A DNA stretch of 40,513 bases from an uncultured Cytophagaceae bacterium (GTDB lineage: Bacteria; Bacteroidota; Bacteroidia; Cytophagales; Spirosomataceae), in contig CAIVPF010000001.1 of NCBI GenBank assembly GCA_903907745.1, forward strand, positions 1-40,513. Reading direction: 5' to 3'. Positions 1,273 through 4,640 of this stretch are shown here, piece by piece. Below the pieces are notes generated by a model. That model ran no database searches. It was not told where the DNA came from and saw only the letters and a program-made list of their open reading frames with translations. Position numbers and translations under genes: made by a program. Position 1 is the stretch's first letter. Each line of letters begins with the position of its first letter.

Positions 1273-2191
1273 GAGATATATTAGGTTCAGGTTTATCTGT
1301 TGTAATCAAAACAACTGCCAATAGTATGAAAAAACTCGCAAATAATAAAATTCCATGCAAAGGTTCATCTAAAATCAGATTACCCAAAATTAAAGCAATG
1401 ACCGGATTTACATAGGTATACGTCGCGACCAAGGTTGCGTCTAAGACTTTGGATAAATAACCAAATAAAGAATACCCGAGCATCGAACCAATTAAGGCCA
1501 AATAAATAAACACAACATAGCCTTTTATCGGTATCTCAGGAAGATAGACTTGATTTAGGTCACCTTTGAGCCAACTAATACATAACACCAAAAGGCCTCC
1601 TGAAACCATTTGAATCGCACAAACTTGGGTAAAATGGTAGCGATTAGCTCCTTGGAATTGGATTTGAAAAACGGCGATATTCCAACCAATCACGGCTAAC
1701 AACAAAAATCCAATACCCAGAAAAAATTCAGTTTCTTTTCCAGATATGGCCAAGGATTTTTGACTCATCATGATACCTATCCCCACTAAACCCATGCAAG
1801 TACCTACTAATTTCCGAATCGAAGGTTTCCTTCCGGCTACCCAGAAAAAAATGACTAATAATAAAGGACCTAATGCCATAAAAACGGAAGAAAAACCAGA
1901 TGGCACAATCGAACCTGCCAAAGCCATACAGCCATTCCCTAATGAAATCATTAAAAATCCACAAAGAACATGGGTTTTGAAATGACCTTTTTCCATACGA
2001 ACCCAATGTTTTCCAAGAATTGACCAAATTAATAGTAAAGTTCCAGCCACTAAATTCCGGCCAAAGGTGATCATCAATGGCGGAATGTAGGCCAATAAAA
2101 TACGAACACTTAAAAAGGTCGAACCCCAAATTAGATATAAAAAACCTAACGAAATTAATGCCGCTAAAGGGATTTTGACCTGTTTATTCAT
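1256..2191 (-). CDS. EamA family transporter (drug/metabolite transporter superfamily)
   Basis: A 311-residue, strongly hydrophobic protein with about ten predicted membrane helices arranged as two EamA halves. The N-terminal 'GFLYLIWGSTFLSVRI' block is the classic opening of YedA/RhtA-like DMT exporters, and the second half ends with 'NPVIALILGNLILDEPL', also diagnostic. Such proteins export amino acids or other small metabolites across the inner membrane; the substrate is unknown. The start codon lies inside the last codons of trmD (8-base overlap), and its own end overlaps the esterase start, so translation is likely coupled along the transcript. The tail after the last helix is short and polar. 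Confidence 0.9.
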   Translation of the reverse strand: MNKQVKIPLAALISLGFLYLIWGSTFLSVRILLAYIPPLMITFGRNLVAGTLLLIWSILGKHWVRMEKGHFKTHVLCGFLMISLGNGCMALAGSIVPSGFSSVFMALGPLLLVIFFWVAGRKPSIRKLVGTCMGLVGIGIMMSQKSLAISGKETEFFLGIGFLLLAVIGWNIAVFQIQFQGANRYHFTQVCAIQMVSGGLLVLCISWLKGDLNQVYLPEIPIKGYVVFIYLALIGSMLGYSLFGYLSKVLDATLVATYTYVNPVIALILGNLILDEPLHGILLFASFFILLAVVLITTDKPEPNISHEKSA

Positions 2192-2870
2192 GTGAATCTA
2201 ACAAGTCTGGTCGGCGAGTTTGCGTCCTCAATACAGCTTGTTCGTGACGCCAAATATCTATTTTTTTATCATTTCCCGATCGTAAAATCTCCGGAACTTC
2301 CATTCCTTCCCACATCGCAGGTCTCGTATAAACCGGGGGCGCTAATAAACCATCTTGAAATGAATCCGTTAATGCAGACATTTCATCTCCGATCGCTCCA
2401 GGAATCAATCGAATAATGGCATCCGTACAAACAGCTGCCGCTAATTCACCGCCCGATAATACATAGTCCCCTATGGATATTTCCTTCGTCACATACTTTT
2501 CACGAATGCGCTCATCAATTCCCTTATAATGCCCGCAAATGAAAATCATATTGTCACAAAGGCTCAATTGATTCGCCAAACCTTGTTTAAATACCAAGCC
2601 ATCTGGACTAAAAAACACCACCTCATCATATGAACGCTCGGCTAACAAGGAATCTAAACAAGCCGCGAGAGGTTCAACGGCCATGACCATGCCCGCACCA
2701 CCCCCAAAAGGATAATCGTCTACTTGTTTATGCTTTTTTTGAGAATAATCATGTAAATCATGTAAATGTACTTCCACCAAACCTGCTTGAGCCGCACGCT
2801 TGCAAATCGAATGTGCAAAAAAACTTTGCATCAAATCGGGAACCACTGAAAGTATATCAATCCGCATCAT
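2184..2870 (-). CDS. trmD: tRNA (guanine(37)-N1)-methyltransferase TrmD
   Basis: A 228-residue SPOUT methyltransferase that methylates G37 next to the anticodon to prevent +1 frameshifts. The N-terminal MRIDILSVVPD, the DDYPFGGGAGMV loop and the S-adenosylmethionine trefoil-knot segment ISIGDYVLSGGELA are all present, followed by the family C-terminal segment with RPDLL. Two consecutive ATG codons (2870 and 2867) could start it; the first is used here. The start lies 14 bases inside the end of rimM, which suggests translational coupling in the rpsP-rimM-trmD order seen in many bacteria. Unlike many genomes, rplS does not follow; an EamA exporter does. The length is near the usual 230-250 residues. 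Confidence 0.97.
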   Translation of the reverse strand: MMRIDILSVVPDLMQSFFAHSICKRAAQAGLVEVHLHDLHDYSQKKHKQVDDYPFGGGAGMVMAVEPLAACLDSLLAERSYDEVVFFSPDGLVFKQGLANQLSLCDNMIFICGHYKGIDERIREKYVTKEISIGDYVLSGGELAAAVCTDAIIRLIPGAIGDEMSALTDSFQDGLLAPPVYTRPAMWEGMEVPEILRSGNDKKIDIWRHEQAVLRTQTRRPDLLDSHE

Positions 2871-3393
2871 CTTCTAAATAAACCTCTAACAAACCATCTG
2901 GAAAAATACTATGAACTACTTTCGCCTTTTTGTCCACTTTGGGAATAATCTCATCCGTCAAAGGAATTAAAACTTCCCGATTATTATAAATCATAATTAG
3001 GACGTCCTGTGCACCGGTAGAATACACTTCTTTCACCACACCTAAGCTACCAAGATTAGCATCTTCTATCTGGTAATCAATGATTTCATGGTAATAAAAT
3101 TGATCATCTTTGAGCTTTGGCAAAAAAGACACCGGTAAAAATAATTTCTTCCCCACTAATTCCTTCGCTGCATCCAATGTCTCAATCCCCTCTAAAAGCA
3201 TCAAATTTAAATTATCCCGGATTTGCAAATCTTGAATAAAAAAGGGAACCAATTCATTCGCCATTTGTACAAATACAGATTCCAATTCCTCATATTCATA
3301 AGGATCATCTACATCTAAAAAAACGTGAAAAGCGCCTTTTAAACCATGCGGTTTGGAAAGGGTTCCCAATTCAAAGTATTCTGTTTTTGCCAT
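2857..3393 (-). CDS. rimM: Ribosome maturation factor RimM
   Basis: A 178-residue protein with the two RimM parts. The N-terminal beta-barrel starts with 'ELGTLSKPHGLKGAFHVF', the family signature GxxxxPHGLKG. The C-terminal PRC-barrel-like half contains 'LGVVKEVYSTGAQDVLI' and 'VLIPLTDEIIPKVD'. RimM binds S19 and assists maturation of the 30S head domain and 16S rRNA. It sits between rpsP and trmD, the conserved order. A 65-base gap separates it from rpsP and contains an AT-rich terminator-like hairpin, so its expression is probably lower than that of S16. Its end overlaps trmD. Confidence 0.96.
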   Translation of the reverse strand: MAKTEYFELGTLSKPHGLKGAFHVFLDVDDPYEYEELESVFVQMANELVPFFIQDLQIRDNLNLMLLEGIETLDAAKELVGKKLFLPVSFLPKLKDDQFYYHEIIDYQIEDANLGSLGVVKEVYSTGAQDVLIMIYNNREVLIPLTDEIIPKVDKKAKVVHSIFPDGLLEVYLEDDAD

Positions 3394-3399
3394 AGGTAC

Positions 3400-3442
3400 A
3401 AAAAAAAATCATACAAATCTGTTAACAAATTTGTATGATTTT
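3400..3442 (-). terminator. AT-rich intrinsic terminator/attenuator between rpsP and rimM
   Basis: A perfect 14-bp inverted repeat (3405-3418 with 3429-3442, 10-base loop) lies just after the rpsP stop. On the minus strand the second arm runs into nine consecutive T (3408-3400). It is the right shape and orientation for a Rho-independent terminator, but the stem is nearly all A-U, so termination is probably partial and rimM-trmD are reached by read-through. Confidence 0.6.
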
Positions 3443-3458
3443 CAATGAATTAAAAAAT

Positions 3459-4187
3459 TTATTCCGCTGCAGGAGCCTCTTCTTCAGTGGCATCCGCTGC
3501 TGGAGCTTCTTCCACTGCCGCTTCTGCTGCTGGAGCTTCTTCCACTGCCGCTTCTGCTGCTGGTGCTTCTTCCACTGCCGCATCTGCTGCTGGAGCTTCT
3601 TCAGCTGCAACTTCTGCTGCTGGTGCTTCTTCCATGGCAACTTCTGCCGCTGGTGCTTCTATTTCTACTTCTTCCTCATCGCTTTCATTGATAGCTTCTA
3701 CTACGCTTGCTACGATTGCCTCGTCAGCCGCCTTGTTTTTAGCAGCAATGTTTTCAGCTCTATTCGCAGAAACTTTTGATTCAGCTTCTAAACGAGTAGC
3801 TTTTGACTTCGCTTTTGATTGTTGGATCGATGAAGCCTTCGTTTGAATCTTCACTTCTTTCTCTGCTTTCCACGCTTCAAACTTCGCATCTGCTTGTTCT
3901 TGCGTCAAAGCACCTTTCAATACACCTACCTGTAAATGCTTTGCATATAAAATACCTTTGTAAGATAAAATTGCTTTTGCCGTATCTGTTGGCTGAGCAC
4001 CATCCATTACCCATTTGATAGCTTGTTTTTCATTCAAAACAACCGTTGCTGGGTTCGTGTTAGGATTGTAAGTACCGAGTTTCTCGATAAAACGTCCGTC
4101 GCGAGGTGCACGTGCATCTGCTACAACTACGTCAAACATTGCTAACTTCTTGCGTCCACGACGCGATAATCTAATTTTAACAGCCAT
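3459..4187 (-). CDS. rpsP: 30S ribosomal protein S16 with long acidic repeat tail
   Basis: A 242-residue protein. Residues 1 to about 80 are a normal bS16 domain (MAVKIRLSRRGRKKLAMF, then DGRFIEKLGTYNP and AIKWVMDGAQPTDTAKAILS). bS16 is usually 80-100 residues; Bacteroidota often carry an extension, and here it is large. Residues about 85-160 form a charged Lys/Ala/Glu region likely to be helical. Residues 177-242 consist of about 6.6 copies of a 10-residue unit of the type EAPAAEAAVE, very acidic and Ala/Pro-rich, probably disordered. S16 binds 16S rRNA early in 30S assembly. The tail would extend from the ribosome surface; its role is unknown. A promoter and a leader hairpin lie upstream (4203-4269), and rimM and trmD follow. 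Confidence 0.96.
   Translation of the reverse strand: MAVKIRLSRRGRKKLAMFDVVVADARAPRDGRFIEKLGTYNPNTNPATVVLNEKQAIKWVMDGAQPTDTAKAILSYKGILYAKHLQVGVLKGALTQEQADAKFEAWKAEKEVKIQTKASSIQQSKAKSKATRLEAESKVSANRAENIAAKNKAADEAIVASVVEAINESDEEEVEIEAPAAEVAMEEAPAAEVAAEEAPAADAAVEEAPAAEAAVEEAPAAEAAVEEAPAADATEEEAPAAE
3462..3659. repeat. 30-bp tandem repeat encoding the S16 tail
   Basis: About 6.6 head-to-tail copies of a 30-bp unit, each coding for ten residues (consensus EAPAAEAAVE on the minus strand). The middle copies are almost identical at the nucleotide level, including synonymous positions, which points to recent unit duplication. Because the unit is a multiple of three, copy-number changes keep the frame. 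Confidence 0.9.
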
Positions 4188-4269: not shown

Positions 4270-4279
4270 GTGAAAAAAT

Positions 4280-4640
4280 GAGAAAATAAATCGATAAGCC
4301 GAATTCTGTAAGTAGGAAATCCTACCCTCTTATCATTTATCTTGGACAAACATCACTATTTGCCTCTAGCAATCTACCCACTGACATCGGACGAGCCACC
4401 CTTTTGCCTTGCGGCAGCCAGCCTATTTGATCTTGCAACGCGTGAGGTTTACCTATGCCTAATTTGTCACCAAATTAGCGGTGGGCTCTTAATCCACCTT
4501 TTCACCCTTACCCCGAAAGGCGGTTATTTTCTGTGGCACTATCTGTAAAACTCGAAAGTCTCCCTTCCTGTTAGGAAGCACGCCGCTCTATGTTGTTCGG
4601 ACTTTCCTCTTTAAAAAGCGATAAGATGATTTATTTTCTC
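4280..4640 (-). ncRNA. rnpB: RNase P RNA, bacterial class A
   Basis: Read on the minus strand, the segment holds the conserved RNase P RNA blocks in order: GAGGAAAGTCCG (4609-4598), the CACAGAAA P4 strand (near 4535), AGGGTGAAAAGGTG (4508-4495), the GGTAAACC and CAAATAGG blocks, and finally ACAGAATTCGGCTTATCG near the 3' end. The two ends pair perfectly over 13 bp (4280-4292 with 4628-4640), giving helix P1 and fixing the boundaries at about 361 nt, a normal length. The RNA is the catalytic part of RNase P, which trims the 5' ends of tRNAs. A TACCTTTG promoter element lies 5 bases before the 5' end, and a run of six T follows the 3' end (4278-4273), consistent with termination. Confidence 0.96.

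Follow-up and report, generated by a model that had tools for sequence, protein, structure and literature searches.

The acidic, repeat-built tail of ribosomal protein bS16 in an Aquirufa genome: free in length, restricted in composition and paralleled on bL17

Ribosomal protein bS16 is an essential protein of the small (30S) subunit of the ribosome, and its anchoring in the 5' domain of the 16S rRNA is established. The bS16 gene considered here, rpsP, begins with ATG on the minus strand of a 40,513-nucleotide stretch of DNA from an uncultured Cytophagaceae bacterium (positions 1-40,513 of contig CAIVPF010000001.1 in GenBank assembly GCA_903907745.1; the whole stretch is called the window below) and encodes 242 residues, the last of which form a tandem repeat. 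A first-pass annotation, made from the letters of the window, set this product against a norm of 80-100 residues and described it as bS16 with a 160-residue extension, and the locus raises the question of what the added length consists of, how it arose and what maintains it. The reading that we consider probable is that of an ordinary Bacteroidia bS16 whose acidic tail has been duplicated in frame and is selected for bulk charge and hardly for exact sequence or length, with a brush as the mechanism that we infer.

The product is matched by the Pfam family PF00886 (Ribosomal_S16) over residues 9-67 (E=2.4e-21; 75.9 bits against a curated cut-off of 27) and by the NCBIfam model NF011094 over residues 1-187, covering profile positions 1-183 of 186 (E=6.2e-69; 231.5 bits against a cut-off of 209). 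Its AlphaFold2 (AF2) model resembles solved bS16 chains, for example 8buu_p (Z 15.5, root-mean-square deviation 1.2, 86 residues aligned). These matches, together with the open reading frame (ORF) and the analysis of the array, bear out the earlier description, in that the protein is a bS16 of 242 residues with 6.6 ten-residue units at its end; the span first given for it, 3462..4187, differs from the full ORF at 3459..4187 only by the stop codon. A single rpsP was found in the source genome (93% complete; 2.79 Mb in 165 contigs). Over the part compared, the bS16 proteins of genus members equal those of the named species Aquirufa antheringensis (L018/L034), A. ecclesiirivi (L008/L036) and A. 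nivalisilvae (L006/L037), and those of records of metagenome-assembled genomes (MAGs) labelled Spirosoma fluviale and Cytophagaceae bacterium likewise match the genus members L003 and L023. Because of the matches to named Aquirufa species the genus is called Aquirufa here, and judging from these proteins the source genome belongs with Aquirufa (Cytophagales).

The extra length proved real, and it is made up of two parts, a conserved segment predicted to be helical (about residues 83-169) and an acidic tail predicted to be disordered, where a single extension had been described. AF2, run on an alignment of 78 proteins, gives a confident bS16 fold, a short helix at residues 79-91 and a single long helix predicted for residues 96-169, with high confidence to about residue 150 and falling confidence beyond. 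From residue 171 on the tail is predicted to be unstructured, with a mean predicted local distance difference test score (pLDDT) of 46-62 per ten residues; with its net charge of -26 and its lack of Lys and Arg, this supports the acidic disordered tail proposed at first. In solved ribosomes of relatives, bS16 is modelled for only residues 2-86 of 188 in Flavobacterium johnsoniae (7jil) and for residues 2-119 and 2-99 of 192 in two entries of Porphyromonas gingivalis, so that the middle segment is partly visible in the latter and the tail is modelled in neither.

The class-wide comparison removes two of the initial premises. A norm of 80-100 residues does not apply in Bacteroidia, where most of the proteins compared have 160-210, and a long extension is not peculiar to the source organism, since the class form of bS16 is itself long and acidic-tailed. 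The alignment consists of 78 hand-picked proteins, namely that of the window, 9 genus members and 68 proteins of other loci; the greater part of the genus was left aside, as were near duplicates, truncated genes, the two longest tails (L044 and L057), two families of the same class and lineages of other classes. All 78 show three parts: a core of 81-82 residues with a charge of +6 to +10; a middle segment of 71-74 residues with a charge of -1 to +8, which in the protein of the window corresponds in this alignment to residues 83-156; and a tail of 4-152 residues, net negative in every case (-2 to -55) and free of Lys and Arg in 52. Residues 83-106 are conserved about as well as the core (mean majority fraction 0.75 vs 0.77). 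In a check set of 39 proteins drawn from those left aside (20 of the same class and 19 of the genus) the tail is again net negative throughout. A single length of the middle segment for the whole class is ruled out by the 20 same-class check proteins, among which it spans 57-80 residues, and its length is fixed only within the genus. The model NF011094, also known as PRK14521 and in our own reading the Bacteroidota form of bS16, shares the core and middle segment with the protein of the window, which matches it over residues 1-187 and exceeds its 186 positions by about 55 residues, all of them in the repeat tail.

Within the genus, sampled as one genome per species, rpsP was matched in 30 of the 38 genomes searched. 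The first 168 residues have one length in all 30, and the tail that follows ranges from 41 to 139 residues. Composition is restricted: the 2,148 residues of 29 tails are 33% Glu, 33% Ala, 16% Val and 8% Pro, with a single Lys and neither Arg nor Gln, when single-base mutants of the tail codons (transitions weighted twofold) would be expected to yield 5.7% Lys, 1.0% Arg and 3.3% Gln. This near-absence of Lys, Arg and Gln is common to tails with different units. The protein ends in PAAE in 26 of the 30 and in AAAE in three; the remaining one, L014, contains Ns and was excluded from the composition, codon and correlation counts.

The array in the window consists of six full units of ten residues and six residues of a further one (residues 177-242), and Tandem Repeats Finder (TRF) independently reports a repeat at 3496-3660 with a period of 30, 5.5 copies and 89% matches. 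The near-identity of the central units in DNA, remarked on from the start, is confirmed for units 3, 4 and 5, which agree at 93-97%, with all other pairs of full units at 63-87%. Where neighbouring units agree in a residue they use the same codon in 83% of cases, compared with 64% when the tail's codons are shuffled among positions with the same amino acid (P=0.0006, 5,000 permutations), so that the repetition exceeds both chance and what constraint on the peptide would produce. As synonymous codons repeat along with the units, the array grew by duplication of DNA. Of the 29 genus tails, 19 repeat their codons at the best period more often than permutation would give (P<0.05), that of the window included (P=0.001); this period is 10 for the window and 10, 12, 14, 18 or 27 for the other significant tails, differences from which it follows that arrays were rebuilt more than once. 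Outside the genus the best periods of 15 tails run from 5 to 37.

The first-pass annotation also held that copy number in this core gene is still changing. This stands for differences between species: repeat number is not identical across the relatives compared, and in-frame insertions or deletions separate the tails of 15 of 17 chosen related pairs, every gap in these 15 being a multiple of three. The tail diverges more than the flank in the two pairs whose cores are closest, with 27/270 differences and gaps of 15 and 12 against 16/560 downstream for L010/L011, and 25/279 against 15/560 for L022/L026. Artefacts of single assemblies were rejected as the sole cause, given that lengths also differ among genomes 96-99% complete in 1-70 contigs (tails of 55 residues in G001, 58 in G012, 54 in G014, 44 in G002, 57 in G005 and 50 in G023); individual MAG arrays may still be collapsed.

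A similar acidic C-terminal stretch of Ala, Glu, Val and Pro is found on bL17 of the source genome (L193, contig C162), and the idea that the tail is unique to rpsP in this genome was therefore rejected. A bL17 match is present in 33 of the 38 genus genomes, and in 31 of them (L193 and L207-L236; G013, with no locus, and G033, which is partial, were left out) a tail of 43-116 residues extends past the RRSRR motif, with 91 Lys or Arg and 767 Asp or Glu in 2,405 residues. For the control uS2, with Ala, Glu and Lys likewise abundant at its C-terminus, the open frame measures 272 or 273 amino acids in each of the 32 genomes where the match is full (a second, short fragment occurs in one of these), and bL25 shows no such tail at its C-terminus, bL17, bL25 and uS2 being the other ribosomal proteins examined. 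Querying the source genome with the tail peptide returned rpsP, in two overlapping rows, and one weak match (E=0.39), and missed bL17. A DNA pattern for EEAPA gave 11 matches, six in rpsP, two in rplQ and three elsewhere that lie within unrelated frames and are not such tails; the reversed pattern, as a control, gave two.

Tail lengths of bS16 and bL17 correlate across the 22 genomes with both (rho 0.81, P=4e-6; G017 dropped for Ns), and independent contrasts in 21 genomes give r=0.50 and P=0.021 (20 contrasts, two with a zero). Removing the single most influential contrast raises P to 0.064 and removing three raises it to 0.24, and the signs agree in 12 of 20. The correlation was accordingly rejected as proof that the two tails are selected together, since the contrasts result is fragile to the removal of one contrast, and it is a lead only. 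The stronger view, that bS16 and bL17 carry matched, repeat-built acidic brushes whose lengths co-evolve under one selective pressure while other ribosomal proteins (uS2 being the one tested) stay fixed, the pair forming a tunable polyanionic surface layer of Aquirufa ribosomes, strikes us as unlikely.

As to mechanism, the Aquirufa tail has become a tandem array through in-frame duplication of units of about 30 bp, by slippage or unequal exchange, and selection probably acts on the bulk of the tail, that is, on its being acidic, nearly free of positive charge and spaced by Ala, Pro and Val. In the mechanism that seems likeliest, the core is anchored in the 5' domain of the 16S rRNA and the helix would carry the tail off the ribosome surface, where it could serve as a negatively charged entropic brush, offsetting the basic core before assembly and lowering unspecific sticking of the particle to RNA or to other ribosomes; the bL17 tail would play the same part on the large subunit. 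Taken together the sequences seem best fitted by an appendage that is selected to be acidic and flexible and whose length and sequence matter little, as would be expected of an electrostatic brush or a solubility tail. That a brush in particular is the function we regard as possible but doubtful.

The main rival to a brush is a tolerated tail under weak purifying selection: a by-product of slippage at a free C-terminus, without positive function, from which only basic, sticky or degradable changes are weeded out. The freedom of length, the slippage-like codon repetition and the lineage-specific best periods (10, 12, 14, 18 and 27 in the 19 genus tails, 5 to 37 in the 15 elsewhere) are all what it would lead one to expect, and several further observations weigh in its favour or otherwise count against selection for bulk charge. 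An acidic tail free in length is also what a weakly constrained appendage would look like, and the missing Lys is in part an effect of copying, units that derive from a single seed not being independent. Ten of the 29 genus tails lack significant codon repetition, and in several pairs the tail diverges less than the sequence downstream of it (mostly rimM), as in L006/L007, with 5/132 differences (3.8%) in the tail and 80/560 (14.3%) downstream. Lys or Arg occurs in 26 of the 78 class tails, and the middle segment has outliers of 57 (L168), 75 (L169), 78 (L112) and 80 (L130) residues, the remainder of the 20 same-class check proteins having 72-74. Nor is there a constant charge balance, with tails from -2 to -55 in the 78 proteins and -89 in L057, and in the window the tail over-compensates, leaving the whole protein at net -15. 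Yet the acidic tail persists in 78/78 aligned proteins and 39/39 added ones, pure slippage does not predict a similar tail on bL17 alongside a fixed length of uS2, and 40-140 extra residues on an abundant protein carry a synthesis cost. We therefore rate a tail that is simply tolerated as improbable, if somewhat less so than the two alternatives that follow.

If instead the tail were a docking site for a specific basic partner (an assembly factor, a nuclease or another ribosome), bound with an avidity that depends on the number of repeats, the array itself would make sense, repetition of near-identical units being a common route to multiply a binding motif, and the prevalent PAAE or AAAE ending would fit as well; repeat period and sequence, however, differ even within the genus, and no class-wide motif was noticed on inspection, no motif search having been run. 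We hold such docking to be quite unlikely. Much the same small chance is left for a tail cut off by proteolysis and absent from mature ribosomes: the tail is indeed unmodelled in the F. johnsoniae and P. gingivalis maps, but this fits disorder and removal equally, and were the piece discarded, its conserved acidity would be puzzling unless it had a role before being cut off. A duplicated acidic tail under selection for its bulk charge is the reading to which we incline.

Beyond the class Bacteroidia, several other classes of the phylum have a bS16 C-terminus that is Lys-rich or mixed instead, and some of their lineages carry acidic or Ala/Glu/Pro repeats of their own, for example L152 (period 8), L151 (period 15), L158 and L159. 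The units of these four are EEAPAAEA-like or VEAAPEAA-like and resemble those of Aquirufa despite the distance of the lineages, a likeness that is apparently convergent. The longest bS16 among the proteins compared, with 443 residues, comes from a Flammeovirgaceae MAG (L057, positions 1501-2832), and its tail of about 287 residues has acidic repeats with a best period of 35 and a net charge of -89. In one family of another class (L145, L146, L147 and L148) bS16 has 294-344 residues, with a long acidic tail and, after it, some 40 C-terminal residues that are similar among the four (AIDHI.N ... R.TV..AWE); these may form a small domain that the acidic linker holds to the ribosome. At least two of the 392 genomes of the phylum sample (G198 and G081) have two S16 matches, and the best match in G198 sits in a frame of only 70 residues.

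Table 1. Features of the rpsP region, in positions of the window.
Feature	Positions	Strand	Basis
rpsP, bS16, 242 aa	3459..4187	minus	ORF list, Pfam, NCBIfam, genome search
bS16 core, residues 1-82, net charge +8	3942..4187	minus	Pfam match 9-67; AF2 pLDDT 90-98 per ten residues
Middle extension, residues 83-168	3684..3941	minus	End of short helix 79-91, then most of predicted helix 96-169
Acidic tail, residues 169-242, net -26, no Lys/Arg	3462..3683	minus	Predicted disordered from about residue 171
Tandem array, residues 177-242, 6.6 units of 30 bp/10 aa, commonest unit EAPAAEAAVE	3462..3659	minus	TRF and unit analysis
A/T-rich hairpin and U-run, rpsP-rimM gap	3394-3448	minus	-18.7 kcal/mol, z -6.2
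rimM, downstream operon partner	2857..3393	minus	ORF list; Pfam RimM and PRC_RimM
trmD, downstream operon partner	2184..2870	minus	ORF list; Pfam tRNA_m1G_MT, E=2.1e-54
RNase P RNA, class A	4279-4637	minus	Rfam RF00010, 261.7 bits

The surroundings of the gene are summarized in Table 1. The order rpsP, rimM, trmD is found in the window, with Pfam matches on both downstream ORFs; an operon with these three genes has been described, there also including rplS (PMC10931766, in the part drawn on here). The hairpin in the rpsP-rimM gap is near-perfect, and its U-run stops six bases short of the rimM start. Across 30 genus loci the stem, the T-run and GTACC(T/C)ATG are almost invariant and the loop varies. 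It is likely a terminator or attenuator, in which case rimM-trmD would be uncoupled from rpsP. A scan of 123 other loci (a few genomes being counted twice) by a crude rule gives a hairpin with a T-run no more than 130 bases past rpsP in 28 of them, with differing sequences. Directly upstream of rpsP, and also on the minus strand, is the RNase P RNA gene. Two antisense ORFs over the array on the plus strand (3435-3779 and 3487-3846) were taken as by-products of the repeat codons.

A C-terminal acidic low-complexity tail on bS16 is in itself of an already known kind. Low-complexity regions (LCRs) rich in Ala and Glu were reported for S16 in more than 100 genera in 2019 (PMC6821194), where the vast majority of LCRs in ribosomal proteins are described as C-terminal and L17 is listed too, with at least 20 orthologs. 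The Aquirufa tail is likewise C-terminal; set beside the criterion of more than 70% Ala plus Glu, the 29 genus tails reach 66% by residue count (33% each, with 16% Val and 8% Pro). The sections of that paper considered here give counts across genera, without turnover within a genus, the division into helix and free tail, or the tails of bS16 and bL17 together. These three aspects were not encountered in the open-access literature searched, and are new with respect to it; no dedicated study of the Bacteroidota bS16 tail was found there, and the main text of PMC9976891 contains no mention of bS16, S16 or rpsP. In Cutibacterium acnes bS16 has a C-terminal extension whose end lacks density and whose visible part binds uS4 and lies by rRNA helix h17 (PMC10085706, in the part available). 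The resemblance of this actinobacterial extension to that of Aquirufa lies in its C-terminal position and need not reflect homology. The idea that the extension makes up for a short h17, which has been raised for C. acnes, was set aside, the shortening being small: h17 spans 52-55 nucleotides in five Bacteroidota rRNAs, none from Aquirufa, and 61 in Escherichia coli. A 16S gene was not found in the source genome, and was found in only 5 of the 25 genomes queried.

Ribosomal proteins widely carry low-complexity tails that have yet to be explained, and Aquirufa offers a natural length series of them (41-139 residues on bS16 and 43-116 on bL17), with the bS16 core keeping a constant length. As there are cultured species among the named Aquirufa, the role of the tail could be tested by swapping or removing it. 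If the two tails truly co-evolve, the charge of the ribosome surface would itself be a selected trait.
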